From: Methylogaea oryzae
GTDB lineage: Bacteria; Pseudomonadota; Gammaproteobacteria; Methylococcales; Methylococcaceae
DNA: 64,000 nt
Assembly (NCBI RefSeq): GCF_019669985.1
Contig: NZ_AP019782.1
Coordinates: 1,978,001 to 2,042,000 of the forward strand
Direction of reading: 5' to 3'
The first letter of the stretch is position 1. Each line of letters begins with the position of its first letter. The notes under the pieces are model-generated. The model made no database searches and was not told the DNA's origin. It worked only from the letters and a program-made list of their open reading frames with translations. The translations under genes were made by a program, and so were the position numbers. Below, in pieces: positions 504 through 38,367 of this stretch.

Positions 504-1919
504 TCAGCCGCGCGCCGCGGCCACGGCGTCGGCGAAAATGGCCGCGATGCGGTAGATGTCGTCGGCGTCGACGATCAGCGGCGGCAAAAAGCGCACCACG
601 CTGCCTTGGCGCCCGCCCAGTTCCAGAATCAGGCCGCGCGCCAGGCATTCCTGCTGGATGCGGCGCGCCAAGTCGCGCTGGGGCGGGCGTTCTCCGGGCC
701 CACCGACCGGGTCCACCACCTCCACCCCGATCATCAACCCCCGTCCGCGCACGTCGCCCAACTCCGGCGCGCCGGCCTGGATCTGGCGCAGCTGCTCCAT
801 CAGGCATCGGCCCATGCGGTCGGCGTGGCGGTGCAGCTGCTGCTGCCGCACGAAGCGCAAGGTCGCCAATCCCGCCGCCATGGCCAGCTGATTGCCGCGG
901 AAAGTGCCGGCGTGGGCGCCCGGCTGCCAACGGTCCAAGTCCTTGTGATAGACCACGACGCTCAAGGGCAAGCCGCCGCCGATGGCCTTGGACAACACCA
1001 GCACGTCCGGCTCGATGCCGGCGTGCTCGAAAGCGAACATCTTGCCGGTGCGGCCGCCGCCGGTCTGAATTTCGTCGACGATTAGCGGAATGCCTTTCTC
1101 CCGCGTCATGCGGCGGATGTCGCGCAGCCATCGGTCCGGTGCGGGAATCACGCCGCCCTCCCCTTGCACCGCCTCCAGGATCATGGCCGCCGGCGGCGCG
1201 ATACCACTGTTGCCGTCGTTGAGCAGCCGTTCGATGTAGGCCGCCGAGATGCGGCCGTCGTCTTGCCCGCCCAGGCCGAACGGGCAGCGGTACGAATAGG
1301 GATACGGCAGGAAATGCACTTCGCCCATGAGGCCGGCCACGGCGACTTTCGGGCCGATTTCCCCGGTCAGGCTCAACGCGCCGTGGGTCATGCCGTGGTA
1401 GGCGCCGTGAAACGCCAGGATCGAGCGGCGGCCGGTAGCGGTCTTCACCAGCTTCAGCGCCGCCTCCACGGCGTCGGCTCCCGACGGCCCGCAGAACTGG
1501 ATTCGAGCGTTGGCGGCGAAGTCCGGCGGCAGGCACGCGAACAGTTCCTCCACGAAAGCGTCCTTCACCGGCGTGGTCAAATCCAGGGTCTGGAACGGCG
1601 TGCCGTCCGCCAGCAGTTGCTGAATCGCCTCCACCACCACCGGGTGGTGATGCCCCAGGGCCAGGGCGCCGGCTCCCGCCAGGCAATCGATGTAGCGGCG
1701 TCCGTCGGCGTCCTCCACGTGGATGCCCCGGCCTTGCTTCAAGGCCAGCGGCAAGCGGCGCGGATAGCTGCGGGCGTTGGACTCGCGCGCCGATTGCCGC
1801 CCCAGGTAATAGGCGTTGTCTTCCCGCGGGACCGGCGCCAATCCGCCGTTCCCCGCCGTCCACCAGGCCTCGTCCGCGACGCCGGGGCTTTCCGCTTCCA
1901 CTTCAACGATACTTTGCAT
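504..1919 (-). CDS. dat: Diaminobutyrate--2-oxoglutarate aminotransferase (Dat/PvdH type)
   Basis: Class III PLP aminotransferase of 471 residues. It is predicted to make L-2,4-diaminobutyrate from aspartate semialdehyde and glutamate. Visible family motifs are the cofactor-binding GPSGADAVEAALK segment, the DEIQTGGGRTGK segment and the Schiff-base lysine in LSKAIGGG. The frame stays open further upstream, but the start is set at the ATG at 1919 because it overlaps the cysC stop as TGATG, typical of translational coupling. It is the last gene of the lipopeptide operon. The second adenylation domain of NRPS1 carries a Dab-like pocket, so this gene most likely supplies that monomer. An alternative is amination of the aldehyde released by NRPS2, as MxcL does in myxochelin; the Dab pocket makes precursor supply the better reading. 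EctB of ectoine synthesis is a close relative, but no ectA or ectC is nearby. Confidence 0.9.
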   Translation of the reverse strand: MQSIVEVEAESPGVADEAWWTAGNGGLAPVPREDNAYYLGRQSARESNARSYPRRLPLALKQGRGIHVEDADGRRYIDCLAGAGALALGHHHPVVVEAIQQLLADGTPFQTLDLTTPVKDAFVEELFACLPPDFAANARIQFCGPSGADAVEAALKLVKTATGRRSILAFHGAYHGMTHGALSLTGEIGPKVAVAGLMGEVHFLPYPYSYRCPFGLGGQDDGRISAAYIERLLNDGNSGIAPPAAMILEAVQGEGGVIPAPDRWLRDIRRMTREKGIPLIVDEIQTGGGRTGKMFAFEHAGIEPDVLVLSKAIGGGLPLSVVVYHKDLDRWQPGAHAGTFRGNQLAMAAGLATLRFVRQQQLHRHADRMGRCLMEQLRQIQAGAPELGDVRGRGLMIGVEVVDPVGGPGERPPQRDLARRIQQECLARGLILELGGRQGSVVRFLPPLIVDADDIYRIAAIFADAVAAARG

Positions 1920-2631: not shown

Positions 2632-5034
2632 TCACGGCCGTCCCGCCGGCGTCAACGTCAGGCGCTGCAGGGTTTCCCCCGCCAGCAAGGGCGTGGCGAC
2701 GCCCGCCAGCCAGTCCCGCTGCTGGTCGTCGTAATACGCCGACAGGGGATTGCCGGATTGACCGCCGGGCATGTGCAGCAACGCATCCTGCTCGCTGCCG
2801 GGCGCCACCACCAGGCGTTCGCTGGCGCCGCCCGAACCGTCGGCCATGCGCACGCACTGCCGGCAACCGGGCAGCGGCGCGTCGGGCATGTTGAGCAGCG
2901 CGCCCAACAACGGATGGACGGCGGCGAACGGGTGTTCGATGCGCGTCGGGTTGACGCAGCCCCAGCTCGCGTCTTTCCACGTATCCGCGCCGCAGCGGGA
3001 CAGCACCGCCTGGGCGGCGGCCTCCAGCCGGTCCAACAGCAACTCGTCCCAGCGCGCGTGGCCGCCCTGTGGCGGCAGCAATTCCGGCGCCCTGGCGTCC
3101 AGCAACTGCCGCAGCGGCTCGTCCATGTTGCGCCAGGTGTATTCGAAGGACGGATCGAGCGCCCGGCAGCGCGCCAACAGCGGCGCTAGTACCGCATCGG
3201 CCAGCAGCCGCCGGAATTCCACCAGCACGGCCAGTCCCCGCGACTCCGGCCAGGCATGGCCGTCCCAATCCTGGATGTGGCGGCGCAACGCCCGCAGCTC
3301 GGGAGACAGGGTGCTGCGATGGGTTTCCAGCGCGTCCAGCGCCAAGCGCTGGTAGTAGCGGTAGAACTCCGTGCGGGTATCGAGCTGCACTTGCAGCAGG
3401 TCTTTCTCGGTGACGCCCTGCAGTTGCGACAAGCGTTCGGCGATGCGGAAAGCGCGGTAGCCGCTATCGAAGTCCTGGCCGATCACGTGGGGATACTCGC
3501 GCCCCACCATGCGCTGGTTGGCGTTGACCAGATAGCCCGCCGGGGGATTGACGATGCGCGGCTTGTCGCCGGCGGCGACGTAGCCGCGCCAACCGCGCGA
3601 ACCGTCCGCCCAGGAACGGCTCAGCAGGCCGTCCAGGTTGCGGCGGTCGGGGATTTTCCCGACGTAGGTCCAAGCGATATTGCCGCGGCTGTCGGCGAGC
3701 AAGCCGTTGAGCGGCGGCCCGCCCGCCCGTTGCATGATCGGCAGGGCTTGGAAAACGTCCTCGGCGTCCTGCAGATCCAGTAAGGCCAGATCGCTGGCTG
3801 CGGGGTCCAGCGCCGTCCAGCGCACCGCCACCGGCTTGCCCAGCAAGGGGTCCGGCAGCAGCGGTCCCCAAACGCTGGTGCGCACGTCCAGGGCCACGTC
3901 GGCCTGGCCTTTGACGCGAATGGTTTCGCGGCGCACGCCCAACGGCACGTCGCCCTGCGGCGTGCGGTAGCGATCGGGCGAATCCGCCGCCATTTCCAGC
4001 GGGACGAAATCCACGAAGTCTCCCGCCACGCTGGTGTATCCCCAGGCGACGCGGCCGTTGCTGCCGGAAACGAACAGCGGCACGCCGGGCAAGGTGATGC
4101 CCGCCAGCAGGCGGTCGGGCAGGCGCATTTCGGCGCGGTACCAGATGTTCGGCACCCGCAGCGCCAGATGCATGTCGTTGGCCAGCATGGCGCGTCCGCC
4201 TCGGCTTTTGCCGGGGGAAACCAACCAGCCGTTGGAGCCCACCGGCATTTCGCCGGCTTGCACCAGCCCGGCTTGCGGCGGCGGACTGTCCGCCAGCAGC
4301 GCCGCCAACGCCTGGCGCGGCATGGCGGTAACCGGCCGCCAGGGCTGTTTGCCGTTGCTGATGCCGTCGGTGTAGCGGTCGGTTTCCGGCAGCAGGAAAT
4401 CCGACACTTCCTTGCCCAAGGCCGCCTCCATGACGCTGGCCCGGAGTTCCTGCTCGCCGGTGCGCCAAGTCAGATTCTCGAACATGCCCAGGACCACCAG
4501 CAGGCTGTCCTCCGCCCGCCAAGGCTCGGGACGATAGCGCAGCAGCAGGAACTCGAACGGCATCAGCGACATGCCGTCCATCGCCTGGTTGACGCCGTCG
4601 GCATAGGCGTCCAGCACGGCGCGCTGTTCGGCCGGTAGGCGCGCCGCGGCCGCGGCGGCGACTTGTTGAAAGCCCATGACGCGGTGCCAGCGGTCGGATT
4701 TCAGCGCGGCCTCACCCAATACCTCGGCCAGCCGGCCGCCGCCGCGCCGGCGCAGCAAATCCATCTGGAACAGGCGGTCGTGGGCGGTGACGAAACCCAA
4801 TGCCCGAAACGCGTCGTCGCGGCTGTCGGCGTGGATGCGCGGAATGCCGCGCCGGTCGAATTCCACCGTCACCGCCGCGCGCAGGCCGGCCAGGCCCCGC
4901 TCGCCGTCCCAATCCGGCAAGGAAGCGCCCGCCAGCAGCGCCGCCACCCCGGCGGCGGCCAGGATCGCAGCCAGCGCGGCAGCGGCGATCCGGCGCGGCC
5001 ATTTCCATCCGCCGGGCTTAACCGGCGACCGCAT
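2632..5034 (-). CDS. Penicillin acylase family protein (PvdQ-like Ntn hydrolase)
   Basis: An 800-residue periplasmic N-terminal-nucleophile hydrolase precursor. Residues about 14-37 form a hydrophobic membrane-targeting segment. The alpha chain follows ([25 protein letters not shown]). Autoprocessing is expected at Gly266-Ser267, where VGSNGW supplies the catalytic Ser as the new N-terminus of the beta chain; LANDMHL follows as in the family. In Pseudomonas, PvdQ removes the fatty acid from the pyoverdine precursor in the periplasm. Placement in an operon with a FAAL-initiated NRPS and a PvdE-like exporter suggests the same role here, though acyl-homoserine-lactone or antibiotic acylase activity cannot be excluded. 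The start overlaps the 3' end of the exporter gene by 17 nt. Confidence 0.88.
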
Positions 5035-6727
5035 GGGACGCCTCCAGCGGTTGCTCCTCGGCCGGTAGCGGCTTCGCGGCCCCTACCCCGCCGCCGGGCC
5101 GTCCCGACGGGGCGATCGCGCCGATTTTCCCGTCCTCCAATCGCAGGCAGCGATCGGCCAAGTGGAAATAGGCGTCGTCGTGGGTGATGACCACCACGGT
5201 TTTTCCCTTGGCCTTCAGGGAAGGCAAAATTTCCGTGTAGAAAACCTGCTTGAACGCGGGGTCCTGGTCGGCGGCCCATTCGTCGAACACGTAAAACGGC
5301 CGGTCCTCCAGGTAAGCGGCCAGCAGCGCCAAGCGCTTGCGCTGGCCCTGGGACAAATCGACGGTGGAGAACCGGCCGTCCTCGATGCGCACCTTGTGAT
5401 CCAATTGCAGCCGCCGCAGGTAGTCCCGCGCCTGCTCGTCCAATTCGCGGTTGCCGAATCCCAGCAGGCTTTCGAACAGATAAAAATCGGAGAACACCGC
5501 CGAAAAATGCTGGCGGTAGTCCTCGCGCGCCGCGGCCGTCACCGGCGCGCCGTCCAGGAGTATGGTGCCGCTTTCCGGCGCGAACAGGCCGATCAGCAAC
5601 AAAGCCAGGGTGGTTTTGCCGCTGCCGTTGCCGCCGACGACGAAAACCAGCTCCCCCGGCTCAAGGACGAAGTCCAGCGGCCCCAGCATGAAATCGCGTA
5701 CCGCCTCGTCGCGGAAATAATGGTGCGTCACCCCGGCGAACCGCAGTCGCCGCGCCTGTTTGGCGGGGACGCCGGCCGATGCGCAGTCGGCTTCGGGGCT
5801 CGGCGCGTCGACGCGGCCGGCCAGCCCGTCCAACTTGCCCAGAGCCGCCTGGGCGCGCCCCAGGATCGGCAGGCCGTTGAACAGCGTCACCAGCGGCGCC
5901 ATCATGTAGATGACCGCGAACACCGCGCCCGCCATGGTGTCCGCCGGCAACGGCAGGTGTTGCGGCAAGACGAACAAGAACAGGCCGATGACCAGGTAAA
6001 ACAGCCCGGTGCCCCAGTTGGCGCCCAGCACGTAGGCCGTCATGCCGGCTAGGTAAAGGGCTTGGCCGCGCTCGGCGGTGGCTTGCAATTCGTCGGCGAA
6101 AAACGCCCGGCGCTTGTCCCGGTTCAGTTGCAGCTCCTTCACGCCTTCGGTCAATCCGCGAAAATGCTGGAACAGCCGATCGTCGCACTCCCGCGCCTGC
6201 TTGAAGCGGGCGATGGCGCCGCGCTGGATGGCGCGGAAGCTCAGCACCCCGAACGCCATGACGACGGCCATCACCGCGAACAGCGGCGGCGACAGCCAAG
6301 CCACGTAGGCCAGGCAGCCCAACACCGTCGCCACGTTGATGCACAGCAGCGGAATCCAGGAAAACGACTCGGCGACGGCCGCCACGTCGTCGGTGAGGTT
6401 GACCAGCAAGCGCGGCGCGCCCAGCGCCTGCAAGCGGCGATAGGGCGTCGCCAGGATTTTGTGCCCCAGCTCCGCCCGCAGCCGGAAAATGGCCGACTGG
6501 CCCAGCCGGGTCAACAGCAGCGACGAACAAACGCGGCTGGAAACCATCAGCAGGACTAGCGCCGTGAACGCCAAAATCAGCCGATCGGCCGGATATTCCT
6601 TATGGAACACCACGGCCACCACAAAGGCCACCAGCCCGGCGCTGCACAGGCCGTTCAACAGGCCGGCCGCCAGCGCCGCCACCATTTGCCATTTCGCGGC
6701 GCGCAACAAAAACGCCATGATCGCCAT
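5018..6727 (-). CDS. Cyclic peptide export ABC transporter (PvdE/SyrD family)
   Basis: A 569-residue fused exporter with an N-terminal six-helix membrane domain (about residues 1-295) and a C-terminal ATPase. The ATPase has Walker A GGNGSGKTT, the signature LSQGQRKR and Walker B with FYVFDEWAADQDP. The signature variant and the DEWAADQDP motif match the PvdE/SyrD group, which moves NRPS peptides across the inner membrane. In pyoverdine synthesis PvdE delivers the acylated precursor to the periplasm, where PvdQ acts; the same pair occurs here as overlapping neighbours. It lies 37 nt after sulfotransferase 1. A start at the fourth residue (second Met) is possible. Confidence 0.92.
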   Translation of the reverse strand: MAIMAFLLRAAKWQMVAALAAGLLNGLCSAGLVAFVVAVVFHKEYPADRLILAFTALVLLMVSSRVCSSLLLTRLGQSAIFRLRAELGHKILATPYRRLQALGAPRLLVNLTDDVAAVAESFSWIPLLCINVATVLGCLAYVAWLSPPLFAVMAVVMAFGVLSFRAIQRGAIARFKQARECDDRLFQHFRGLTEGVKELQLNRDKRRAFFADELQATAERGQALYLAGMTAYVLGANWGTGLFYLVIGLFLFVLPQHLPLPADTMAGAVFAVIYMMAPLVTLFNGLPILGRAQAALGKLDGLAGRVDAPSPEADCASAGVPAKQARRLRFAGVTHHYFRDEAVRDFMLGPLDFVLEPGELVFVVGGNGSGKTTLALLLIGLFAPESGTILLDGAPVTAAAREDYRQHFSAVFSDFYLFESLLGFGNRELDEQARDYLRRLQLDHKVRIEDGRFSTVDLSQGQRKRLALLAAYLEDRPFYVFDEWAADQDPAFKQVFYTEILPSLKAKGKTVVVITHDDAYFHLADRCLRLEDGKIGAIAPSGRPGGGVGAAKPLPAEEQPLEASHAVAG

Positions 6728-6764: not shown

Positions 6765-7958
6765 CTAGCCCAGCAACAGCTTGCCGAAGCTGGTCGCCAG
6801 GCTGACGTTGCCCGCGATGCCGATGGCGCCGTTTTCGAAAGCGTCCACCACCGAGCGCTGGCCGGCGGCCAATTCGATCAAAGTGTCGGCCGCCAGGCTG
6901 ATGACGCAATCCGCCGCCCGCCCGCCCGGCTCGATGACGGGTTTGGCCTGGGTCAAATCGATGGTCCATTCGCCCGGCTCGCGGCCGTTGACCACCAGCC
7001 GGCAGGTGCCGCCGATGGCCTTGGCGTAATCGCCCCGCTGGTCGATGGCGGCGCGGAAACCCTCTAACACGCCGGCCACCGCCCCTCGCTGCGGCGCGGT
7101 TTCCGCGCCGTCCGTTTCCTCCGGGAGCCGCTGGGCGGAGTAGCCCAGGTCGTCCAGCAAGGCGTCGATCCTGGCGCGCAGGGGCGCCGGGATGGTTTCC
7201 ACCGGCAGGGAGGCGCCGCCGCCGATGGAAGCGGTGTGGATCTTCTTGGAAAAATGGAATTTTATGTCGCCCTCGGCGAATCCGCCGGCCGGCTGGCCGA
7301 AGGTTTTTTCCAGCAGGCTGTCGTCCCACTCCAATCCGAGAAAGCCGAACAGCGCCGTCAGCGTCTCGCCGGGCCGGCTGGCCAGGGACTCGTAATTCAC
7401 CCGGAAACACCGCCCGGGATGGGCGCGCTCGAACGCCTGGATGGCGCTATTGCGCTCCACCCAGTACTCGGCGATGGCCGCCACCACGTTGTGCGGGCTT
7501 TTCTGCACGTGGCCGCAGATTTCCGGCAGGAAGCCCAGCCGCGACATGGACAGGTAGGAATGCACGAAATCCAGGCAATGGCGGTACAGGCAGATGTATT
7601 TGGCGTTGGGAAATACCCGGTCGATGAGCGGCAGGTGCGGCAGGTTGACCAGCGACTTGTCGCACCATAGCCGCGCTTGGTCCGCCTTGGCGTATTCGTC
7701 CATCAAGCCCGTCACCGCGGCCCGCGTTTTATCCAGCGCCAAGGCGCGGCGCTCCGGTTCCGAGCCGCCGCCGGCCGAACGGGCCAGCGCCAAATAATGG
7801 GTGGAGTTGAGCGCCTCGCACAGCGGCCCGATGGCGAAGACCGAAGCGAACACCGCCGGGTGGGAATCGACGACGTTGCGCAGCAGCGTCGAGCCGGAGC
7901 GCTTCAGGGATAGGATAAAGACCGGATTGCCGGCGTCGTTCGCATCGAAATGATCCAT
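6765..7958 (-). CDS. Sulfotransferase with C-terminal SCP2-like domain (copy 1)
   Basis: A 397-residue predicted PAPS-dependent sulfotransferase. The 5'-phosphosulfate loop is SLKRSGSTLLRNVVDSHP near residue 17 and the 3'-phosphate-binding segment is YRHCLDFVHSYLSM near residue 125. The catalytic region extends to about residue 265. The last 100 or so residues (CRLVVNG, GEWTIDL, ISLAADTL, GAIGIAGN, FGKLLL) read as an SCP2-type lipid-binding domain, an unusual fusion. The substrate is probably the NRPS product, with the SCP2 domain holding the acyl tail (inference). It is a paralogue of the gene immediately upstream, with the same domain layout. PAPS would come from cysC in the same operon. 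Confidence 0.85.
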   Translation of the reverse strand: MDHFDANDAGNPVFILSLKRSGSTLLRNVVDSHPAVFASVFAIGPLCEALNSTHYLALARSAGGGSEPERRALALDKTRAAVTGLMDEYAKADQARLWCDKSLVNLPHLPLIDRVFPNAKYICLYRHCLDFVHSYLSMSRLGFLPEICGHVQKSPHNVVAAIAEYWVERNSAIQAFERAHPGRCFRVNYESLASRPGETLTALFGFLGLEWDDSLLEKTFGQPAGGFAEGDIKFHFSKKIHTASIGGGASLPVETIPAPLRARIDALLDDLGYSAQRLPEETDGAETAPQRGAVAGVLEGFRAAIDQRGDYAKAIGGTCRLVVNGREPGEWTIDLTQAKPVIEPGGRAADCVISLAADTLIELAAGQRSVVDAFENGAIGIAGNVSLATSFGKLLLG

Positions 7959-8038
7959 TACAGCCTCCTAGTGTTTTACGGTTGCGGGTCGGTGGCGGGG
8001 CCAGGCGCCGCTGATGGCTCCCCGGCGGCCGCGGTTAC

Positions 8039-9265
8039 TCAGGCGAACAATAGGCGTCCGAATTCGAAGGCCACGTCGCGGTCGCCCGCGACTTCGATTT
8101 GCCCTTCCTCGTACGCCTCCATGGGATTTTTCCGGCCGTCGGCGATGTCCCGCAGCAGCTCGGCGGAAAGCGCCACGGTCGAACTGGTCTCGCGGCCGTC
8201 GGCCGGCACCACGCCTTCGCGGCTGGCGGGATCGACGATCCAGGCGCCGCCGTTGCCGCCGGTGACGACGAACTTGCAGGAACAAGACGCCAGGCCGTCG
8301 GCGCGGCGCAGCCGTTCCTGCTTGCCGGCCCAAAGCCGCTGGAATAAGTCGTCCGCCGCCTGCTCGGCCCGCGCCGTCGGCGCCGTGGCGGGCCCGACGG
8401 CGTGGCGCCGGTAAAACGCGTCGATGGACGGGTAATCCAGCAGCGCCAGCAGCGCGTCCGCCCGCTCTTGCAACGCTTGCGGTATGAGGTCGCGGGGCAC
8501 CTGCCGGCCCTTGCCGACGGAGTCGGCGCTGATGCGGCCGGCGAATTGCACCTTGGCGTCGCCTTCGCCGCTGTCGTGGCGTTGCGTGAATACCGCTTCG
8601 ATCAAGTCCGGCGACCAGTCCACGGCGAGAAACCCGAACAGCCCCTCCAGGGCGGCTGGGGTATCGCACACCAGGGACTCGTATCGCAGGCGATGGCAAC
8701 CGCCGGGGTTTTGCCGCTCGAAGGCCAGCAATCGCTCGGTTTTGTCGATCCAATTGCTCATCATGGCGACGACGATATTGTCGGGATGCCTTTGGACGTA
8801 CGGGATGTGTTCGGGCAGGTAGCGGTAAGCGCTCAGGCCGACACAGGAATGCACCACGTCCATGCAATGGCGGTACAGGCAAACGTAGCGGGCTTGGGCG
8901 AACGCCCGCCGGATGACGTCCAGATAATCCAAATTCATCGGCGTTTTTTCGCACCAAAGGCTTTTGCCCTTGGCGTCCGCGTAACGCGACATCATGCCGC
9001 CGACGATGCGCCGGATTTCCGCCGCCACCGCGGCCGCTTTTTCCCCGTCGTCCATGCCGGGCAGCGTCTGGCCCAGGGTCGGCCACAAAGCGCCCTCCAG
9101 GCTTTGGCACAAGCGCCCCAGGTACAAATGCCCCGGGCAGGCGATCTGCGGGTGGGTATCGACGATGTAACGCAGCAACGTCGATCCCGAGCGTTCGCAG
9201 GAAAGGATGAATAAGGGCGACGCCGGCGCGCCGCCGGTGTTTTCCGGGCGAGCGACATTAATCAT
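8039..9265 (-). CDS. Sulfotransferase with C-terminal SCP2-like domain (copy 2)
   Basis: A 408-residue predicted PAPS-dependent sulfotransferase, paralogous to the downstream gene. The phosphosulfate loop is SCERSGSTLLRYIVDTHP, preceded by FIL, and the 3'-phosphate segment is YRHCMDVVHSCVGLSA. The C-terminal part (CKFVVTGG, VALSAELL, GQIEVAGD, FGRLLFA) again resembles SCP2. The ATG overlaps the stop of NRPS2 as ATGA, so the two are translationally coupled. An 80-nt spacer separates it from copy 1. The copies differ in the loop (CERSGST against LKRSGST) and in the acceptor region, which suggests different acceptor positions or substrates rather than simple redundancy. Confidence 0.85.
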   Translation of the reverse strand: MINVARPENTGGAPASPLFILSCERSGSTLLRYIVDTHPQIACPGHLYLGRLCQSLEGALWPTLGQTLPGMDDGEKAAAVAAEIRRIVGGMMSRYADAKGKSLWCEKTPMNLDYLDVIRRAFAQARYVCLYRHCMDVVHSCVGLSAYRYLPEHIPYVQRHPDNIVVAMMSNWIDKTERLLAFERQNPGGCHRLRYESLVCDTPAALEGLFGFLAVDWSPDLIEAVFTQRHDSGEGDAKVQFAGRISADSVGKGRQVPRDLIPQALQERADALLALLDYPSIDAFYRRHAVGPATAPTARAEQAADDLFQRLWAGKQERLRRADGLASCSCKFVVTGGNGGAWIVDPASREGVVPADGRETSSTVALSAELLRDIADGRKNPMEAYEEGQIEVAGDRDVAFEFGRLLFA

Positions 9266-12200
9266 ATAAGCCTCCGTTGTTCGAATTCCCTGTCATCGCC
9301 CGCCGCGCCCGCCGGCGGGGGGATAAAGCCGCAGTCGGCCAAATAGGACAAATACCGGGTAAACAAGGCGTCCGGCCGGGTCGGACGGTCGATATTCCCT
9401 TGGGCGAGCATCGCCAGGGTCGCCGCGCAAGCGTATTGGCCGGCCGCCGAATCGGCCTCGTCGTCGCCGCCGCGCCACCCCTCCAACAGCGGCAACAGGG
9501 GATACAGCACGTGTTCCGGGTCGGCGGCGACGTTGCGTGCCGCGTATTCGGCCCATTCGCCGAGGGAAACCGCTTCCAGCGGGTATCCTCGGGCGCGGAT
9601 GCTGGCGACCAGCTGTGCCGTCGAGCCCGCCGCCGGGTTGGTCAAATGGGAAATCCGCCCGATAAACTCCGGCCGGCCAGACAGGAACACGATGGCTGCG
9701 CTGACGTAGTCCACCGGCACCCAATCCAGGCTTTCGTCGATCCTGGGCGCCTTGCGCAACTGGATGCAGCCCTTGATGACGCGGCAGAGGAAATCGCCGG
9801 TATTCCAAACGCCGCTGCGGCTATCGCCGGTGACGGCGGCCGGCCGGTGGATGGTGACGGCCAAGCCCCGCGCCGCGGCGGCCCTCACCAGCCGTTCCGC
9901 CACCCATTTGCTTTGCGCGTAGCCGCCGGTAAGCTTGCCGTTGGCCGGCGGCTCGTCGTCCTCGGCGAATCCGCCGGCGCGCGGCGGCGGGTTTTCGCCG
10001 AACACCGACACGGTCGACACGTAATGCACGGCTTTGGGCTTGCCCAGGCAAGCGAGACGCAACACTTCCCGCGTGCCCTGCACGTTGGCCGGCTTCAGCT
10101 CCTCATAGGAACACGCGAAATTGACCAGGGCGCCGTTGTGGTAAATGGCGTCCAGTTTGCCGCTGAGGCGCTCGAATCGCTCCGGCGAAAGGCCCAGCGA
10201 CGGCAACGCCAGATCGCCGCACACCACCGCCACCCGCGGATCGGCCGCCACCGCCTCCATGCCGTAGGACTTGAGCACTTGCCGCAGGCGGTCGGAGGCT
10301 TGCCGCGGCGACTGGCCGCGCACCAGGCAATAGACGATCGCTCCGGTGCGGGACAACAGGTCGCGCAGCAAATAGGCGCCGAGAAAACCGGTGGCGCCGG
10401 TGAGCAACACCGCCTGCGGCGCGCGCACCGCCGGCTCGGCGGCGCAACGCGGCGCAATGGCCGGATCCAAGCGCGCCTCCGCTTCCCAATCGGGCGCGGC
10501 GCATGCCGCCGGCGCGGACGCCCCCGTCAGCAACAAGGCCTGCGCCGCCAAGGTCGGGCATTCCACCAGGCTGCGCAGGGATGCCTCCGTAGCGAATGCC
10601 TGCCGCAACTTGAAAGCCAGCTGGACGGCGAGGATGGAATGTCCGCCCAATTCGAAGAAGTTGTCGTCTCGTCCGACGGACGGGAGGCCGAGGGTTTCCG
10701 CCCAGAGTTTGGCCAGCAGCGTTTCGGCCTCTCCTTGGGGGGCGGCGCGGCCGCTCGGGCGGGCGGACGGTTCCGGCGCCGGCAGGGCGTTGCGGTCCAG
10801 CTTGCCGTTGGGGGTCAGCGGCAAGCGGTCCAAGACCACGTAGGCGCTCGGCACCATGTAGTCCGGCAGGCCCGCTTGGAGCAGCGCTTTGAGTTCGCCG
10901 CCGTCCGGCGCGGCTTGGTCGGCCCGGGGCACCAGGTAGGCGACCAGCCGCGCGCCGCCGGGGCCGTCTTGCCGCGCCAGCACGGCGGCGGCCCGCAGGG
11001 CGGGATGCCGCAGCAGCCGCGCTTCGATTTCTCCCGGTTCGATGCGGTAGCCGCGGATTTTCACTTGGCCGTCGAGCCTTCCCAGGAATTCGAGGACGCC
11101 GTCTTCCCGCCGGCGCGCCAGGTCGCCGGTTTTGTACAGCCTGGACCCCGCCGGGCCGTAGGGGTCGGGGATGTAGCGCTCGGCGGTCAGGTCCGGCCGT
11201 TCGTGGTAGCCCCGCGAGAGGCCGGCGCCACCCAGGTGCAGTTCGCCCGCCACGCCCACCGGCACCGGGTTCAGGTGGGCGTCCAGCAGGTGGATTTGGG
11301 CGTTGGCGATGGGCCGGCCGATGGGGACGCTGGAGGACTGGCCGTCTTCGGCTTGCACGGTGTGGACGCTGCACCAGACGGTGCCTTCGGTGGGGCCGTA
11401 TTCGTTGTGGAGCCGGGCTTGCGGCAGGCGTTCGCGGTGGCGGGCGGCGACGGCCGGCGGGCAGGCTTCTCCGGCGACGATGACGGTGTTCAGGGTCGCC
11501 AAACAGCCGGGTTCGGCTTGCTCCAGCAGCAGGCCGTAGAAGGCGGGCAGGCACAGCAGGTGGCTGAGCCCTTCGCCGGCGATCAGGCGCGCCAGGGCCG
11601 GCGGGTCTTGCTTGAGGGCGGCGTCGGGCAGGCACAGCTTGCCGCCTTGGCTCAGGGTCCAGAACAGGCCGGCGACGGAGCTGTCGAAGGCGTAGGAGGA
11701 CAGCAGCAGGTAGCCTCGCACCGCTTCCGGGTAGTGGCGCTCGCGGGCGGCGGTGGAGTGCACCGCGTTGCGGTGGCTGACCACGACGCCTTTGGGGCGG
11801 CCGGTGGAGCCGGAGGTGTAGATCAAATAGGCGGCGTTGTCGGGATGGCCGGCCGGGACCGGGTCGCGGTCGGGCTGGGCGTCCAGTTCGGCGCGGTCGC
11901 GCTCCAGGCACAGCGGCGTTACGCCGGCGGCGGACAAGGCGTCCCTCTGGGCCGGTTCGGTCACCGCCAGCGCCGCGCCGCAGTCGGACAGGATGTCGGC
12001 GAGGCGTTCGGCGGGATAGCTCGGGTCCAGCGGTACGTAGGCTCCGCCGGCTTTGAGGATGCCGAGCAGGCCGATCACCATGTTCGCGCCGGCTTCCAGG
12101 CAGAGGCCGACCCGGTCGTCGGGGCGGACGCCGCGCCGGCGCAGGGCGTGGGCCAGACGGTTGGCTTGCTGGTTCAGCCGGCGGTAGCTCAGGTGCCGGC

Positions 12201-13779
12201 CGCTGTGGGCCACGGCGACGGCGTCGGGGGTCCGGTGCGCTTGCGCTTCGAAGCGGCTGTGCAGATAGTCCTCCGGCGGCAAGGGCGCGGCGGTGGCGTT
12301 CCAGTCGGCCAGTTGCCGCGCTTCCGCTTCGGTCAGCAGGGCCAGTTGGCTCAGCCGGGCCTCCGGGTCGGCGACGAGGCTTTCCAGCAGCCGCCGCCAG
12401 TGCCGGGCCAGGCGGGCGACGGCGCTTTCCCGGAACAGGGCGGTGCGGTATTCGAACGCGGCGCGCAGCCCCCCTGCCCGCTCCGTCAGACTCAGGGTCA
12501 GGTCGAACTTGGCGACCGGCAGTTCCAGTTCTTCTGCGTCCACTTGCAGGCCGGGCAGTTCCAGCCGGCCGCTGTAGGCGTTCTGCAGGACCAGCATGAC
12601 TTGGAACAGGGGGTTGCGGCCGGCTTCCCGCGCCGGTTGCAGGGCTTCCACCAGTTTTTCGAAGGGCAGTTCCTGGTGCGCTTGCGCGCCCAGGGCGTGT
12701 TGCCGGACTTGGGCCAGGAGTTCGCTGAAGCGCGGGTTGCCGGACAGGTCGGTGCGCAGGACCAGGGTGTTGAGGAAGAAGCCGATCAGGCCTTCCAGTT
12801 CGGCGAGGGGGCGGTTGGCGGCCGGGTAGCCGATGCACAGGTCGCTTTGCCCGCTGTGGCGGTAGAGCAGGACGTTGAAGGCGGCCGCCAGGGTCATGAA
12901 CAAGGTGGCGTCGTGGCGGCGCGACAGCCGGTTGAGGCCGACGAGCAGTTCTGCCGGGAGGTCGAGGGCGTATACCGCGCCGGCGTCGTCCGATGCGGCG
13001 GCCGGGGCGGCGTCGCCAGGCAGGGCCAGGACGGCGGGGGCGCCGGCCAGCCGTTCGCGCCAGTAGGCCAGCGAGCGTTCCAGCGTTTCCCCTTGCTGCC
13101 GCTGCCGCTGCCACACGGCGTAGTCGGCGTATTGCACCGGCAGCTCGGGCAGGACCGGGGTTCGGCCGGCTTGGTAGGCCGGGTAGAGGGCGGCGAATTC
13201 CCGCACCAGGACGCCCAGGGACCAGGCGTCGGAGACGCTGTGGTGCAACACCAGCAGCAGGGCGTGGTCTTGCGGCCCCAGTTCCACCAGCCGGGCGCGC
13301 AGCAGCGGGCCGGCCGCCAGGTCGAAGGGCTGGCCAGCCGTTTCCCGCGCCAGGCTTTCCAGCGCCGCTTCGCGCTCGGCGGCCGGCAACGCCTGCAGGC
13401 TCGCGTGCGGCAACGCCAGCGGGCCGGCGGCGGCGATGCGCTGGCGCGGCTCGCCCTCCACCGCGACGAAGGCGGTGCGCAGCACTTCGTGCCGGCCCAC
13501 GATGGCCTCCAAACTCCGCCGCAGCGCCGAGGCGTCCAGATCGCCCCGGATCCGCAACCGGAATCCCAGGTTGTAACGCGAGCCGGCCGGGTCAAGATTC
13601 CACAAAAACCACAATCGCTCCTGACCGTAGGATAGCGGCGCGTCGCGCAGCGCCAGCCGGGGAATGGCGGGGCCATCGCCGCGCTTGGCGGCGTTGCCGC
13701 GCAGGCGCTGCTCCAGCAGTGCCAGTTTGGCCGGCGACAACCCCCGGCGCAGGGCGTCCATGGGACTATGGGCGTTCAT
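9262..13779 (-). CDS. NRPS module with terminal thioester reductase (C-A-T-R)
   Basis: A 1505-residue NRPS. Condensation domain: about 45-480, of LCL look (SYGQERLWFL), with active site HHSVSDA at 179-185 in place of the usual HHxxxDG. Adenylation domain: about 500-1000 (YTSGSTGRPKG, EYGPTE, KTGDLARR, NGKLDR). Thiolation domain: LGGHS, phosphopantetheine Ser1048. Reductase domain: 1122 to the end, with NAD(P)H motif TGATGFLG, STVSVFGE and catalytic YAQSK. The R domain releases the chain as aldehyde or alcohol, and no thioesterase is seen. The pocket read by alignment to PheA is D-S-A-L-I-A-E-V-W-K, sharing seven of ten positions with the His code of bacitracin synthetase as I recall it, so His-like is a tentative call. 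The ATG at 13779 follows GGGAGG at 6 nt, better than the TTG 6 nt upstream. The start overlaps the PepSY gene by 14 nt. Confidence 0.93.
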   Translation of the reverse strand: MNAHSPMDALRRGLSPAKLALLEQRLRGNAAKRGDGPAIPRLALRDAPLSYGQERLWFLWNLDPAGSRYNLGFRLRIRGDLDASALRRSLEAIVGRHEVLRTAFVAVEGEPRQRIAAAGPLALPHASLQALPAAEREAALESLARETAGQPFDLAAGPLLRARLVELGPQDHALLLVLHHSVSDAWSLGVLVREFAALYPAYQAGRTPVLPELPVQYADYAVWQRQRQQGETLERSLAYWRERLAGAPAVLALPGDAAPAAASDDAGAVYALDLPAELLVGLNRLSRRHDATLFMTLAAAFNVLLYRHSGQSDLCIGYPAANRPLAELEGLIGFFLNTLVLRTDLSGNPRFSELLAQVRQHALGAQAHQELPFEKLVEALQPAREAGRNPLFQVMLVLQNAYSGRLELPGLQVDAEELELPVAKFDLTLSLTERAGGLRAAFEYRTALFRESAVARLARHWRRLLESLVADPEARLSQLALLTEAEARQLADWNATAAPLPPEDYLHSRFEAQAHRTPDAVAVAHSGRHLSYRRLNQQANRLAHALRRRGVRPDDRVGLCLEAGANMVIGLLGILKAGGAYVPLDPSYPAERLADILSDCGAALAVTEPAQRDALSAAGVTPLCLERDRAELDAQPDRDPVPAGHPDNAAYLIYTSGSTGRPKGVVVSHRNAVHSTAARERHYPEAVRGYLLLSSYAFDSSVAGLFWTLSQGGKLCLPDAALKQDPPALARLIAGEGLSHLLCLPAFYGLLLEQAEPGCLATLNTVIVAGEACPPAVAARHRERLPQARLHNEYGPTEGTVWCSVHTVQAEDGQSSSVPIGRPIANAQIHLLDAHLNPVPVGVAGELHLGGAGLSRGYHERPDLTAERYIPDPYGPAGSRLYKTGDLARRREDGVLEFLGRLDGQVKIRGYRIEPGEIEARLLRHPALRAAAVLARQDGPGGARLVAYLVPRADQAAPDGGELKALLQAGLPDYMVPSAYVVLDRLPLTPNGKLDRNALPAPEPSARPSGRAAPQGEAETLLAKLWAETLGLPSVGRDDNFFELGGHSILAVQLAFKLRQAFATEASLRSLVECPTLAAQALLLTGASAPAACAAPDWEAEARLDPAIAPRCAAEPAVRAPQAVLLTGATGFLGAYLLRDLLSRTGAIVYCLVRGQSPRQASDRLRQVLKSYGMEAVAADPRVAVVCGDLALPSLGLSPERFERLSGKLDAIYHNGALVNFACSYEELKPANVQGTREVLRLACLGKPKAVHYVSTVSVFGENPPPRAGGFAEDDEPPANGKLTGGYAQSKWVAERLVRAAAARGLAVTIHRPAAVTGDSRSGVWNTGDFLCRVIKGCIQLRKAPRIDESLDWVPVDYVSAAIVFLSGRPEFIGRISHLTNPAAGSTAQLVASIRARGYPLEAVSLGEWAEYAARNVAADPEHVLYPLLPLLEGWRGGDDEADSAAGQYACAATLAMLAQGNIDRPTRPDALFTRYLSYLADCGFIPPPAGAAGDDREFEQRRLI

Positions 13780-15040
13780 GGCCAACCTCCCGGGCGGTCG
13801 CGGCGGCGGCGAAAGGCGACCCGACGGGAATTCGCCCGGTGGCGCTTGCGGCGTGCTTGCGCCCGCGCCTTTTCCGCAGCCAGTGGATCAGGCCGGTGGC
13901 GTAGAGCAAAGCCGGAGCCAAGCCCGACAGGCACGCCAGGATGCGGCCCGGCAAGCCCAAGGCTTCGCCGTTGTGCAGCGGCCACATGAGATTGAGGAAG
14001 GTCTCCCCGGCGCTGAATTCGTTCGGGTCGGCGACCTTCAGCACTGCGCCGCTGTACTGGTCCAGCCACACTTTGCTGCGCGGCCGGCGCACGTTGGCCT
14101 CGCCGGGCTGGCGCTTTTCGACGGCGTAATAGCCTTCCGGGCCGTCGGGCAAGGCGACCCAGCGCAGTTCCGCTCCCGGGAAAACCCGGTCGGCGACCGC
14201 CACCGCCTCGTCTGGGGAAATCGGCGCCGCACCCGCCACCGGCGTGGACTTCAGCGTCGGCGGATTTTGGAACGGCTCGGCGGCGACCGGCGAGAACCAG
14301 GCCACCACCGGCTTCACCCAGTCGCGGTAGGCGAAGGAAAAGCCGGTGAAAGCCAACACCGACAGCGCCACGGCGGCATAAGCGCCCATGGCCCGGTGTA
14401 AATCGAAATTGAACCGCGCGCCGCCGGCGCTGCGTTTGACCGTCAAGGCGGAACGCCACCCGCCGCCGCGCGGCCACCACAGGTACAGTCCGCTCGCCAG
14501 GGACAGCAGCAGCAACAGCCCGAGCGCGCCCACCGTCTTGAAGCCGAGCCGGGCCGCGTCGGGTCCGCCGTATTTGCCGAACCAAAGGCTGGCGTGCAGC
14601 TCGTAGAGGTTCGTCATCAGCGTATCGCCCCAGAAACGGCTGCTCAGCACCCGGGCGATGTAGGGATCCACATCCACCGTCAGGGGCGCAAAGGCCTTGC
14701 CGGCGCTCTCCTCCGGCTTGGCGTAAACGGCGCGCAAGGTGGACGACTCCCCGCGCGGCATGAACAGCATCCACCCGCCGGCGCGCTGGGGATGGGCGGC
14801 GCGCACCGCCGCCATGATTTCGTTCAGCGGCCTGGGGCCGGACCGGGCCGGCTCCACGCGCAAGTTCGGATTGAGCAGCGCGTCCAGTTCGAAGGTGAAC
14901 ACGTTGCAGCTGCCGGTCAATCCCAGCAGCGCGAACAAGAAGCCGGCCCCCAGGGCCAGGCAAAGATGCGCGTCCCGCCACCATTTGCGCAGGCGGCGGC
15001 GCGAAGCCGCTGTCGCGGCGTGCATCGATCGGGTCGACAT
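13766..15040 (-). CDS. PepSY-associated transmembrane protein
   Basis: A 424-residue inner-membrane protein. The N-terminal helix (CLALGAGFLFALLGLTGS) is typical of the family, followed by a periplasmic PepSY-type region, a helix pair near residues 165-185 (GLYLWWPRGG) and 205-230 (FDLHRAMGAYAAVALSVLAF), a second periplasmic region, and a last segment WPLHNGEALGLPGR then a helix. Proteins of this fold include FpvG, which takes part in reductive iron release from ferripyoverdine in the Pseudomonas periplasm. The ATG at 15040 lies 2 nt beyond the NRPS1 stop and the 3' end overlaps NRPS2 by 14 nt, so it is embedded between the two NRPS genes. A role in metallophore reduction or release is inferred from family and position. 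A longer open frame upstream overlaps NRPS1 and is rejected. Confidence 0.85.
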   Translation of the reverse strand: MSTRSMHAATAASRRRLRKWWRDAHLCLALGAGFLFALLGLTGSCNVFTFELDALLNPNLRVEPARSGPRPLNEIMAAVRAAHPQRAGGWMLFMPRGESSTLRAVYAKPEESAGKAFAPLTVDVDPYIARVLSSRFWGDTLMTNLYELHASLWFGKYGGPDAARLGFKTVGALGLLLLLSLASGLYLWWPRGGGWRSALTVKRSAGGARFNFDLHRAMGAYAAVALSVLAFTGFSFAYRDWVKPVVAWFSPVAAEPFQNPPTLKSTPVAGAAPISPDEAVAVADRVFPGAELRWVALPDGPEGYYAVEKRQPGEANVRRPRSKVWLDQYSGAVLKVADPNEFSAGETFLNLMWPLHNGEALGLPGRILACLSGLAPALLYATGLIHWLRKRRGRKHAASATGRIPVGSPFAAAATAREVGHERP

Positions 15041-15042: not shown

Positions 15043-18000
15043 CTACAACGCCTCCTCGGCGACGGTTTCTTCCAGCAGGCATTGGGCTTCGTCCTCCGAC
15101 AGCCCGGCCAATTTTTCGATGAGCGCCGTTTCGACCAGCAGGGCCAAACGCTCCACCGTGGGGGCTTCGAACAGGCTCAGCAGGGACAGCTCCACGCCGA
15201 ACTCGCCGTGAATGCGCGCCAGCAGCTGCACTGCCAGCAGCGAATGCCCGCCCAGGTCGAAGAAGTTGTCGGTGACGCCCACCTGCTCGACGCCCAGCAC
15301 CTCCTGCCACAGTCCGGCCAGGATTTCCTCGCCCGCATTGCGCGGGGCGACGAGCTCCCGCTCGGGCGCTTCCGGCTCCGGCAAGGCCTTACGGTCGATT
15401 TTGCCGTTGGGGGTCAACGGCAACCGCTCCAGCGGCATGATCACCGACGGCACCATGTAGTCCGGCAGGGTCTCTCTCAGGAACTCCCGCAACGCGTCGC
15501 CGCAAGACCCGTCGCGCCGCGCCTCGCTTTCCATCGCCACGTAAGCCGTCAACCGCCGGGCGCCGCTGCGGTCCTCCGGCGCCGTCGCCACGGCCTGCTT
15601 GACCTGGGGATGGCGCAGCAACTGCGCTTCGATCTCCCCCAGCTCGACCCGGTAGCCGCGGATTTTCACCTGGTGGTCCAGGCGGCCGAGGAATTCGATT
15701 TCGCCGTCTTCGCGGTAACGGGCCAAGTCGCCGCTGCGGTACAACCGCTGGCCGGGCGCCACGGCGAAAGGATCGGGCACGAAACGGTCGGCGGTCAGCT
15801 CCGGCCGGTTGAGGTAGCCGCGCCCGACGCCCACGCCCGCCACGCACAACTCACCGGGAATCCCCGCCGGCACCGGCCGCAGCCAGGGGTCGAGCAAGTG
15901 CAGGCGCAGATTCGCCACCGGGCGGCCGATGGGCATCACCGTAGTCGCCTCGTCCGGCGGGGAGGCGACGAAGTGGTAGGCCACGTCGTCCGAACACTCC
16001 GCCGGGCCGTAGGCGTTGAGCAGCCCCATGCGCGGATAGCGCTCCATCCACTGGCGGCAAAGGGCCGGGGGCAACGCCTCGCCGGTGGGCAGCAGCCAGC
16101 GCAGGCGCGACAGGTCGGCGCCGGCGCCGGACGCGTCCAGCATGGCGCGCATCAGGGAAGGCACCGCCTCCAGCACGGTCACGCCGCGCTGTGACAGCTG
16201 CTGCAGCAGCCGGTTGGGGTCGCGCACGACGCTGTCCGGCAGGATTTCCACCCGCGCCCCGCACAGCAACGCCGTCAGGAATTGCCAAACGGAAATGTCG
16301 AAACACTGCGACGCGGTTTGCGCGACGACGTCGCTGGCGCGCAAATCCATGGCGGGAATCTTGCTGAGCAAGTTATTGAGCATGCCGCGCCGTTCCACCA
16401 TGGCGCCCTTGGGCGCGCCGGTGGAACCGGAGGTGTAGATGACGTAGGCCAGCTGGGACGGATCGGCCGGCCCGGCGGGCGGGCGCCCCGGAACGGACGC
16501 CGCCAGCAGCGCATCCATGGAATGCACCGCCACCCCGCCCTCGCCCGCCTCCTCCAGCTCGCGGCGCAAGTCGTCCGCCCAAGCGGCGCCGGACAGGATG
16601 TGGCGAACCCGGCTTTCCCGCAGGATTTCCGCCAGCCGCCGGCGCGGATGGTCCGGGTCGAGGGGCAGATAGGCGCCGCCGGCCTTGAACACCGCCAGCA
16701 TCATCACCAGGAAGTCGATGCCGCGCGGCTCCAGCAGGGCGACCAGGGTATCGCGGCCCACCCCCAGCGCCGCCAAGGGAGCGGCCAGCCGGTCGGCGCG
16801 GCGGTTCAGCTCGCGGTAGTCCAATTGGCGGCCCTGGCAGGCCACCGCCACGGCGTCCGGCGTCGCCGCCGCCTGCGCCTCGAAACGCGCGACGAAATCG
16901 CCCAGGGGTTCGGGCTCCCCCGCTTCGCCGACGTGGCGCCCGATCCAGTCCAACTCCGCCGCCGTCAGGGGCGACAGCTCGCTCAAGCGGGCCTGCGGCC
17001 GGCGGATCATGGCTTCCAGCAAGCGGCGGAAATGCCCCAGCATGCGCTCCACGGCAACGGCGGAGAAACGCTCCCGCTGGTAGGTGATCTGCAAATGCAG
17101 CGCGGGGCCGGGAATCACCACCACCGTGATGGGATAGTTGGTGTGGGTGCGGCTGTGGCGGTAACGGATGTCCAGCCCGCGGCGGCCGTCCAGCAGCGCC
17201 GGGTCGATGGGGGCGTTTTCGAACACCAAGAGGCTTTCGAACAACGGCCGGTTATGGGGCAAGCCGAGCCAGGACTGAATCTGCAACAGGGAGGTGTGCT
17301 CGTATTGGCGCAGCTCCAGGTTTTTCTGGAACAAGGCGCGCAGGAAATCCTCCACCCGCGTCTGCGGCGCGATGTCGACGCGCAACGGCAGGCTGTTGAT
17401 GAACAGGCCGAGGATGTGCTCCACCCCCGGCAGTTCGGCGGGACGGCCGGCGACGGTGACGCCGTAGAGCACTTCGCGGCGGCCGCTGTACTGGCTCAGC
17501 AGCAAGGCCCAGGCCGCCTGCAGCAAAGTATTCGGCGTTACCCGGCAGCGCTGCGCCAAGGCGGCCAGGGCGGCGGTGTCCGCCTCCGACAACCGGCTGA
17601 CCGCGTCTTCCATGGCGCCGGCCACCAGCGCGTTTTCCGCGGCGCCGTTGTCGACGGCCAGGGGCGTGGGCTCGGAAAAGCCGCCCAGTTCCCGTTGCCA
17701 GAACGCTTCGTCCCGGCGGCCGTTTTGCCGCCCCAGCCAGGCGATGTAATCGCGGAACGGCCGCGACCGCCAGGATGGCAGGGCCCGCCCCCCGGCCAGG
17801 GCTTCGTAGTTGGCCAGGAAATGGCCGAAGATTTCCGACGTGCACCACTCGTCCAGCAGGATGTGATGGTAGCTGCGCACGAAGCGGTAGCGCGCCTCGC
17901 CCAGGCGGAACAGGCGCAGGCGCAGCAGCGGCGCTTGATCGAAAGGCAAGCCTTGATCCCGCTCCCGCTGCAGCAGCCGGGCCAATCGCGCCGACTGCTC

Positions 18001-23795: not shown

Positions 23796-24014
23796 TCAAC
23801 TCGCGTCTTCGGCCATTTGCCGGCGCAGGCTGAGCGGACGTATATCGGTCCACGCCGCCTTGATGTAGTCGAGGCACTCCTGCTTGCTGCCGGCCTTGTC
23901 CAAAGCCGTCCAGCCCAAGGGTATCTCCTTGTATTCCGGCCAAATCGAATATTGTTCCTCATGATTGATCACCACTTGGTAAACCGTGGCGTCGTCATCG
24001 TTTTCCCAGGACAT
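23796..24014 (-). CDS. mbtH: MbtH-like protein (NRPS adenylation chaperone)
   Basis: A 72-residue cytoplasmic protein that binds and activates NRPS adenylation domains. The fold signature is visible: [15 protein letters not shown], then [10 protein letters not shown] near the C-terminus. The ATG at 24014 follows AGGAG at 8 nt; an upstream in-frame start would add 18 unrelated residues and is rejected. It lies 188 nt before NRPS1 on the same strand and is the first gene of the biosynthetic unit. The 188-nt gap contains no coding sequence I can support and might hold an internal promoter. Confidence 0.95.
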
Positions 24015-24370
24015 CGTCAATACTCCTAACGCGAACATCTTGATTGATACATCGTGCGACGAAAACAATTACACGATGCATGCCAATACCGTATTCATGC
24101 GGTTTTTCTCTGGAAATAATTACCTGATTACACCGCATGTCAGCTTAGGATTACGGGATATCACGCAGCGTTTCGATACTCTGCGCCAGATCGCGCCATA
24201 ACCCGCAAAAAACCCGATCGATCCAAATCGGGATCGACTATTTCTTGAAATATACCCGTGAATAAAAACCGGCATCCCTGCCGAAAATACGATGGGGTGG
24301 TCCGGCGGCTTTACCGCCGGCCTCTATCGCTGCGCCGGCGAGCGCGGCCCCCGGGGAGGCCGCCGCCTGC
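24015..24370 (-). promoter_or_regulatory. Leader and presumed promoter region of the mbtH-NRPS operon
   Basis: This 356-nt stretch has no gene. It is clearly AT-richer than the flanks near the mbtH start (about 24030-24180), as expected of a promoter region reading left. It also holds an intrinsic terminator for the upstream receptor gene (24207-24232) and a GC hairpin (24302-24320, CCGGCGG/CCGCCGG, 5-nt loop). I could not identify a convincing Fur box or PvdS-type motif by eye, so the controlling factor is unknown. The terminator implies that mbtH onward is transcribed from its own promoter here. Confidence 0.45.
24207..24232 (-). terminator. Intrinsic terminator after the TonB receptor gene
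   Basis: Read on the minus strand, a 6-bp stem CCCGAT/ATCGGG with an 8-nt loop is followed directly by six T. It lies about 140 nt past the receptor stop codon and upstream of mbtH, so it separates the receptor transcript from the biosynthetic operon. Confidence 0.65.
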
Positions 24371-38357: not shown

Positions 38358-38367
38358 GGCCTACCCC

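Follow-up and report, generated by a model that had tools for sequence, protein, structure and literature searches.

The stretch of DNA analysed here (64,000 nucleotides of contig NZ_AP019782.1 of Methylogaea oryzae, positions 1,978,001 to 2,042,000; hereafter the window) contains two neighbouring genes, ST1 and ST2, each of which encodes a sulfotransferase (ST) followed by an SCP2 domain. Such a tandem pair had been claimed in an earlier note made from the sequence; its coordinates are exact, and both domains lie above the Pfam cut-offs in both proteins (Sulfotransfer_3, cut-off 27: 2.2e-29 and 103.7 bits in ST1, 2.7e-27 and 96.9 bits in ST2; SCP2, cut-off 21.3: 2.6e-9 and 37.8 bits in ST1, 2e-7 and 31.7 bits in ST2). 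The genes are separated by 80 nt and a GGAGG ribosome-binding site is found upstream of each. The loop RSGSTLLR, named in the note as the binding loop for 3'-phosphoadenosine 5'-phosphosulfate (PAPS), is present in both proteins; the SCP2 segments ISLAADTL and G-I-x-I-A-G-N, which it had assigned to both, are found verbatim in ST1 only, with equivalent stretches in ST2. In a whole-genome search, ST1 and ST2 were the only two Sulfotransfer_3 matches found, and they account for two of the four SCP2 matches, the other two being elsewhere.

Sequence searches of the PDB with the N-terminal part lead to CurM, Ols and tyrosylprotein sulfotransferases, and those with the last 60-100 residues to SCP2 proteins. 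A profile search with an eight-row alignment (ST1, ST2 and six relatives) retrieved the same sulfotransferases (best 9e-20) and solved SCP2 structures (best 3e-12). The AlphaFold2 model of ST2 (34-row alignment; pLDDT 90.3, pTM 0.82; graded good) shows both folds: its fold alignment gives Z values of 25.6 for tyrosylprotein sulfotransferase 1 (TPST1), 24.1 for the Ols ST and 23.6 for the CurM ST, and its C-terminus resembles SCP2 structures at a Foldseek probability of 1.00, including the palmitate-bound 1pz4. The model of ST1 (eight sequences; pLDDT 77; graded fair) also has fold matches that include SCP2 structures at a Foldseek probability of 1.00. SCP2 is absent among the top 50 rows of VIA-align for the ST2 model, and the SCP2 match is that of Foldseek, HMMER and Pfam. 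The fold which structure prediction had been proposed to test is therefore present, both proteins are confirmed as two-domain proteins of an ST and an SCP2 domain, and a chance SCP2-like motif is ruled out by the Pfam, profile and fold results. The two proteins are 35-37% identical and fall in different supported clades of the tree, which makes them old paralogues; a recent tandem duplication is ruled out.

ST1 and ST2 lie in a run of minus-strand genes in the order fatty acyl-AMP ligase (FAAL) with nonribosomal peptide synthetase (NRPS), PepSY_TM, C-A-T-R NRPS, ST2, ST1, exporter and acylase. The run is tightly packed (overlaps of at most about 20 nt, gaps of at most 80 nt) and is flanked by the genes of a diaminobutyrate (Dab) aminotransferase, an MbtH-like protein, a TonB receptor, FecR and a FecI-like protein (Table 1). 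In the FAAL-NRPS, the FAAL part matches FAAL structures and the best solved match of the second module is PvdL. The MbtH-like protein is presumably correctly named by its motif, the protein at 29717..30229 is one that we take to be a FecI-like sigma factor, and for the PepSY_TM protein we assume a role as in siderophore-linked reductases. Judged by these genes, this methanotroph of the order Methylococcales has a metallophore cluster of the pyoverdine-like kind.

Table 1. Genes of the cluster, with positions in the window and the matches on which the assignments are based.
Feature	Position	Strand	Details
Dab--2-oxoglutarate aminotransferase	504..1919	-	NF005393 764 bits vs cut-off 671; start taken at Met218 of longer open reading frame (ORF)
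Penicillin-amidase (Ntn) acylase, PvdQ-like in a broad sense	2632..5034	-	PF01804 1e-161
Cyclic-peptide-export ABC transporter, PvdE type	5018..6727	-	TIGR01194 501 bits vs cut-off 286
ST1, sulfotransferase-SCP2 fusion	6765..7958	-	397 aa; Sulfotransfer_3 residues 12-213, SCP2 307-395 (Pfam)
ST2, sulfotransferase-SCP2 fusion	8039..9265	-	408 aa; Sulfotransfer_3 residues 17-219, SCP2 316-406 (Pfam)
NRPS C-A-T-R, terminal thioester reductase	9262..13785	-	Pfam; TIGR01746 over cut-off; A code DSACIAEVC, His-like
PepSY-associated transmembrane protein (PepSY_TM)	13766..15040	-	PF03929 1.1e-55
FAAL-T-C-A-T-C-A-T NRPS	15043..23607	-	Pfam; A codes DVWHISLVD (Ser), DIWELTADV (Dab-like)
MbtH-like protein	23796..24068	-	Sequence; blast homologues in related clusters
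TonB-dependent siderophore receptor, STN domain	24371..26761	-	Pfam; TIGR01783 over cut-off
FecR-type anti-sigma regulator	26992..27990	-	Pfam
FecI-like sigma factor	29717..30229	-	Sequence; aligns with FecI-like neighbours of related clusters

Three further features of the window were seen. A protein of 501 aa without a Pfam match is encoded between the FecR and FecI-like genes (28128-29633). Further TonB receptor, FecR, FecI-like (blast) and PepSY_TM genes, together with an amidohydrolase, adjoin the cluster (34158-42231). An open frame of 1452 aa lies on the plus strand, antisense to the C-A-T-R NRPS gene (9277-13635); the G+C-rich codon usage probably accounts for it.

Concerning the predicted product, the A domains of the window carry, in this order, a Ser, a Dab-like and a His-like code. 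DIWELTADV is read here as a Dab code on our own assumption; a literature search for Dab and Ser codes found none. The reading is supported because Dab aminotransferase genes occur where DIWE-type codes do (genomes and loci are given by our G and L numbers): both are found in the window, G017, G109 and G249, and neither in G037, G077, G098, G114, G115 and G179. G174, with a DIWE-type code and no Dab aminotransferase gene in the stretch read, is an exception, and G003, with the gene and no decoded Dab code, counts neither way. For the other two residues, DVWHLSLVDK is given as a Ser code and DSALIAEVWK as a His code that tolerates a beta-hydroxyl (PMC12283262; papers with PMC numbers are cited for extracts of their text). 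The proposed product is an acyl-Ser-Dab-His prometallophore, whose C-terminus would be released reductively. We infer that it is an iron chelator. Iron uptake in methanotrophs is described in a 2026 paper as poorly characterized (PMC13274454). The target may also be a metal other than iron: another methanotroph responds to lanthanides by upregulating a cyclic-peptide exporter and a TonB siderophore receptor (PMC12482762).

The distribution of the fusion was followed by a scan of named genomes, which gave 43 loci with a related ST. A purpose-built SCP2 model matched 23 of them; L041 (without SCP2 in Pfam) and L042, at 13.8 bits each, were then counted as lacking the domain, so that the final count is 21 loci with SCP2 and 22 without. 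Pfam SCP2 exceeds its cut-off in seven of the 21 (L022, L026, L034, L038, L039, L040 and L044); the other 14 were assigned by the purpose-built model at 71 bits or more, and L024 (Methylococcaceae bacterium isolate 8), L031 and L033 (Methylotuvimicrobium buryatense 5G) among them had been used to build it. All 21 loci have cluster markers nearby, 16 with NRPS domains and five (L023, L029, L032, L035 and L037) with exporter, acylase, TonB, PepSY_TM, MbtH or Fec genes only. At the set bit-score thresholds, none of the 22 loci without SCP2 has an NRPS domain, exporter, acylase, TonB or PepSY_TM match; L051 is the only one with a FAAL, and some have more distant ABC transporters below threshold. 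These counts come from tblastn with thresholds of our own setting, several loci without SCP2 being contigs of only 5-7 kb. Since L037 nearly duplicates L036 and Methylococcales supply many of the loci, the sample is not one of independent loci, and Fisher test values computed on it serve as description only. The comparison shows that the SCP2 domain is tied to the FAAL-primed metallophore type of cluster.

The 21 loci come from Pseudomonadota and Acidobacteriota, apart from one in a cyanobacterium and one on a contig that is assigned to Ignavibacteriales but probably mis-binned. The last is L037, from an Ignavibacteriales metagenome-assembled genome, whose ST-SCP2 protein and neighbours are near-identical to those of L036 in a Methylomonas genome, which suggests the mis-binning. 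In Methylococcales, 28 of 301 genomes have an ST match, and in 26 of the 301 the match covers SCP2 as well; only the ST part is matched in G176 and G182, and in G001 the fusion is split across contigs. By hand tally, an acylase lies within 20 kb of the fusion in 20 of the 26; no acylase match is listed on the contig of the ST in G263, G082, G242 and G094, and in G263 an exporter is found on it. Among 369 genomes drawn from the class, a full-length match occurs only in two Methylococcales, and five others match in the ST part only.

We read the NRPSs of 11 ST-SCP2 clusters (the window, G017, G003, G006, G037, G077, G098, G109, G114, G174 and G179) in stretches of 31-60 kb, leaving out the broken or cut clusters of G031 and G001. 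The co-occurrence of the fusion with FAAL-NRPSs, a check which the earlier note had proposed, holds in these lines: FAAL comes first in ten of the 11, and the eleventh (G006) has a FAAL-NRPS frame at a distance of about 86 kb. A terminal reductase domain is found in nine lines; the other two, G006 (40 kb read, two STs) and G114 (60 kb read, one ST), showed none. All 11 clusters have a His-type code. A Ser or Thr code is present in seven. G017, G003, G006 and G174 show neither as far as they were decoded (the far-off FAAL-NRPS of G006 and a single A domain in both G003 and G174 are undecoded), and each has a Cupin_8-like or CmlA-type hydroxylase gene. Two same-type clusters, in G249 and G115, have FAAL, exporter, acylase and Ser codes, and no ST was found in them. 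The ST-SCP2 gene thus looks like an optional addition to a common frame of acylation, export and deacylation.

Based on these lines, three proposals about the target can be set aside. Ser is not supported as a universal sulfation target, given that four of the 11 clusters, as far as decoded, show no Ser or Thr code, and since the ST-less G249 and G115 also have Ser codes, such codes do not single out the target. The number of ST copies does not track the number of hydroxyls, as the counts disagree across clusters. A C-terminal alcohol is not a necessary target, with no reductase found for G006 and G114 in the stretches read. The suggestion in the note that two copies act on Ser and on a reduced C-terminal alcohol is therefore weakly supported: the number of STs is unlinked to that of Ser/Thr modules, four clusters show no Ser/Thr code, two show no reductase in the stretch read, and ST1 is without a counterpart to the catalytic Glu of tyrosylprotein sulfotransferase.

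Other observations concern the related clusters themselves. CmlA-type diiron beta-hydroxylase genes lie beside NRPS modules with His-like codes at L013 (called by Pfam) and at L014, L089, L090 and L091 (called by tblastn), which suggests that several methanotroph metallophores may contain beta-hydroxyhistidine. In the cluster of G017 (L011, 6477-13316) there is a further sulfotransferase of another family (Sulfotransfer_4), together with an additional class-III aminotransferase and a protein resembling UDP-glycosyltransferases. In G031 (L016, 9735-16255) the NRPS beside the ST-SCP2 gene is in pieces, with an unrelated ORF of 416 aa between them, and the assembly line looks interrupted in that strain. 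Just ahead of the intact copy in G077 there are two separate partial ST-SCP2 matches (G077:C1:1311531-1312812, in L080), apparently a decayed second copy.

For the function of the fusion we propose, at about even odds, that the SCP2 domain grips a transient N-acyl tail while the ST sulfonates the prometallophore in the cytosol, after which the product would be exported and its tail removed. FAAL would load the fatty acid, from which the NRPSs would go on to assemble the acyl-peptide on the cytosolic side; each transferase would use its SCP2 domain to bind the acyl tail and to present the peptide to the sulfotransferase site; and PAPS-dependent sulfonation would take place on a side-chain hydroxyl, that of Ser/Thr or, in relatives with a beta-hydroxylase, a beta-hydroxyl. 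The PvdE-type exporter would then carry the sulfated acyl-peptide to the periplasm, where the penicillin-amidase acylase would cut off the tail, which would have served as a transient handle for the cytosolic tailoring enzyme. PAPS is cytosolic, and sulfation is therefore placed before export. The acyl binding, the sulfated product, the hydroxyl used and the order of the steps are what we infer from the cluster. The earlier note had the SCP2 domain hold the acyl tail of a lipopeptide; the co-occurrence with FAAL-NRPSs fits a held tail, but the presence of an exporter and an acylase in a metallophore cluster means that the tail is probably temporary, removed later, and that the pathway need not end in a lipopeptide. 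SdsAP/SdsA1, which acts on alkyl sulfates and has an SCP2-like domain, offers a precedent (PMC5426288).

A number of findings weigh against this proposal. The acylase fails the PvdQ equivalog model NF051460 (31.5 of 950 bits), and its family is found in 129 of 301 Methylococcales genomes, far above the count of the fusion, so that its action on this product is putative. The ST cluster of G098, like that of G114, is separated by more than 1 Mb of contig from the matches for exporter and acylase, while NRPS, TonB and PepSY_TM genes adjoin the ST. G249 and G115, in which no ST was found, keep FAAL, exporter and acylase, and the tail is thus not there for the ST only. The ST copies per cluster (one to three) do not match the count of Ser/Thr codes: two against one Ser in the window, three against one in G179, one against four in G114, and one against one Ser and one Thr in G037. 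As for iron ligands, no hydroxamate, catechol or beta-hydroxylase genes were found among the window genes scanned with Pfam (a CmlA_N search of the whole genome also gave no match, but its controls were likewise silent, so that it shows no absence). In place of the acyl tail, a different lipid or a protein may be what the SCP2 domain binds, and ST1 has no candidate base at the column of the tyrosylprotein sulfotransferase (TPST) base.

The last point touches on the difference between ST1 and ST2. Residues R25, G27, S28, K107, R132 and S140 (ST2 numbering), which we take to bind PAPS, are invariant in all 34 aligned rows; R25, G27, S28, R132 and S140 would presumably make up the 5'-phosphosulfate loop and the 3'-phosphate site. 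At the column where CurM and TPST have Glu (E99 of TPST2, which we take to be the catalytic base), the 33 rows other than ST1 have Glu (14), His (15, including His46 of ST2) or Gln (4). Val occurs there in ST1 only, next to a gap of one residue, whereas L021 (Methylovulum psychrotolerans Sph1), the sister of ST1, has Glu. ST2 position 106 (Glu in ST2 itself) is Glu or Asp in 34 of 34 rows, so that either this residue would be the base or ST1 would be altered. If it is altered, ST2 would be the only active enzyme, ST1 a divergent or inactive partner, and one sulfation would result; this we consider possible though rather unlikely, and it can hold together with the proposal of a gripped tail. 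The Val and gap in ST1, and the placing of the two proteins in different clades, speak for it. The retention of the conserved PAPS residues by ST1, the possible role of Glu/Asp106, and the Gln found at this column in G003 and G017, whose single ST-SCP2 genes are presumably active, speak against it.

Sulfation of the metallophore would be the same if the SCP2 domain were a tether to the membrane or to a protein complex, as a siderosome anchor or a docking site for carrier proteins. We regard this as unlikely, since every enzyme of the assembly line could profit from an anchor, yet the SCP2 matches found in the cluster of this genome are confined to the two STs. At many positions of the domain hydrophobic residues are kept in all or nearly all of 27 rows, but these fit any intact SCP2 fold and do not decide. 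SCP2 domains bind many lipids, and the ligand is not readable from sequence, which leaves room for a tether; the membrane-associated siderosomes formed by pyoverdine enzymes are also in keeping with it (PMC6206403).

Less probable still is a role of the sulfate as leaving group in a dehydration or ring closure, the final product being unsulfated. This is the use of the sulfate in CurM and Ols, and their STs belong to the closest solved relatives in both sequence and fold; equally near by fold are the tyrosylprotein sulfotransferases, whose products keep the sulfate. The reductase that ends nine of the 11 lines makes a CurM-type decarboxylating release unfit for those nine. For pyoverdine, a sulfonated intermediate aiding ring formation was once proposed, and sulfonated dihydropyoverdines have been reported, which the review describes as very lowly abundant and possibly adducts (PMC6206403). 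It is very improbable that the target is a 3-hydroxyl of the SCP2-held fatty acyl chain, with the sulfated tail cut off later: an acyl substrate suits the SCP2 domain, and the near relatives CurM and Ols presumably act on beta-hydroxyacyl chains, but one tail per cluster stands against one to three ST copies and there is no evident use in modifying a part that is later removed.

Returning to the proposal of a gripped acyl tail, its wider form would be that the pyoverdine-type fatty tail is a recognition tag for cytosolic tailoring enzymes, which would yield sulfated, histidine-containing metallophores in methanotrophs; we put this forward tentatively, as somewhat less than an even bet. If true, it gives a direct reason for the cycle of acylation and deacylation. 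An enzyme with its own lipid-binding domain beside FAAL, exporter and acylase makes one answer to the question of acylation testable, and the fusion points to sulfated metallophores in methanotrophs. It bears in this way on a question about pyoverdine acylation that is openly stated in the review (PMC6206403). Both domains are already known; the fusion and its setting are undescribed in our searches of the open-licence PMC literature, in which no description of an ST-SCP2 fusion was found (listings of domain-architecture databases lay outside this search). Among the matches listed for the phrase sulfated siderophore, none was about one by title and start of abstract, and PMC3992016 has one mention of a 'sulfonated siderophore'.

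Compared with known systems, the ST domains of CurM and Ols (4gbm, 4gox) are the nearest solved bacterial STs by sequence and fold and likewise work in assembly-line biosynthesis. They are domains of polyketide synthases and, to our knowledge, lack SCP2, whereas ST1 and ST2 are free-standing, have a C-terminal SCP2 domain and belong to an NRPS metallophore cluster. The activating STs of CurM and Ols are followed by a decarboxylating thioesterase; the neighbours of the ST genes here are the exporter and the C-A-T-R NRPS. TPST1 and TPST2, which are eukaryotic Golgi enzymes, share the fold (Z about 25), the PAPS-loop Arg and the conserved Lys with the ST1/ST2 alignment; they differ in having no SCP2 domain and in the catalytic Glu, which is aligned with His in ST2 and Val in ST1. 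A likeness to the alkylsulfatases SdsA1/SdsAP is seen in Alkyl_sulf_C matches, of which that of L039 exceeds the cut-off and those of ST1, L026 and L040 do not reach it; the alkylsulfatases are hydrolases of the metallo-beta-lactamase fold, whereas ST1 and ST2 are transferases. The myxochelin NRPS MxcG has the same C-A-T-R release module, and its model NF038078 matches the window NRPS over nearly the full length; the score of 762 bits is below the equivalog cut-off of 2300, and the A code here is His-like.

The closest likeness in gene content is to the pyoverdine system (ferribactin; PvdL, PvdH, PvdE and PvdQ), the logic of which is an acyl-primed peptide, export and deacylation (PMC6206403). 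The window has, in one cluster, a FAAL-primed NRPS, Dab supply by an aminotransferase, a PvdE-type cyclic-peptide ABC exporter, an Ntn acylase, an MbtH-like protein and Fec-type regulation. Tyr-Dab chromophore modules are lacking and the acylase belongs to the wider penicillin-amidase family only, failing the PvdQ model; the cluster is therefore not a pyoverdine cluster. No PvdA/F/P/O-type genes were seen among the window genes scanned, and the word "sulfotransferase" has no occurrence (0) in the pyoverdine review (PMC6206403). Where pyoverdine has Glu-Tyr-Dab, the codes here are Ser-Dab-His, and the cluster of Methylogaea oryzae has in addition a terminal reductase and the two sulfotransferases.

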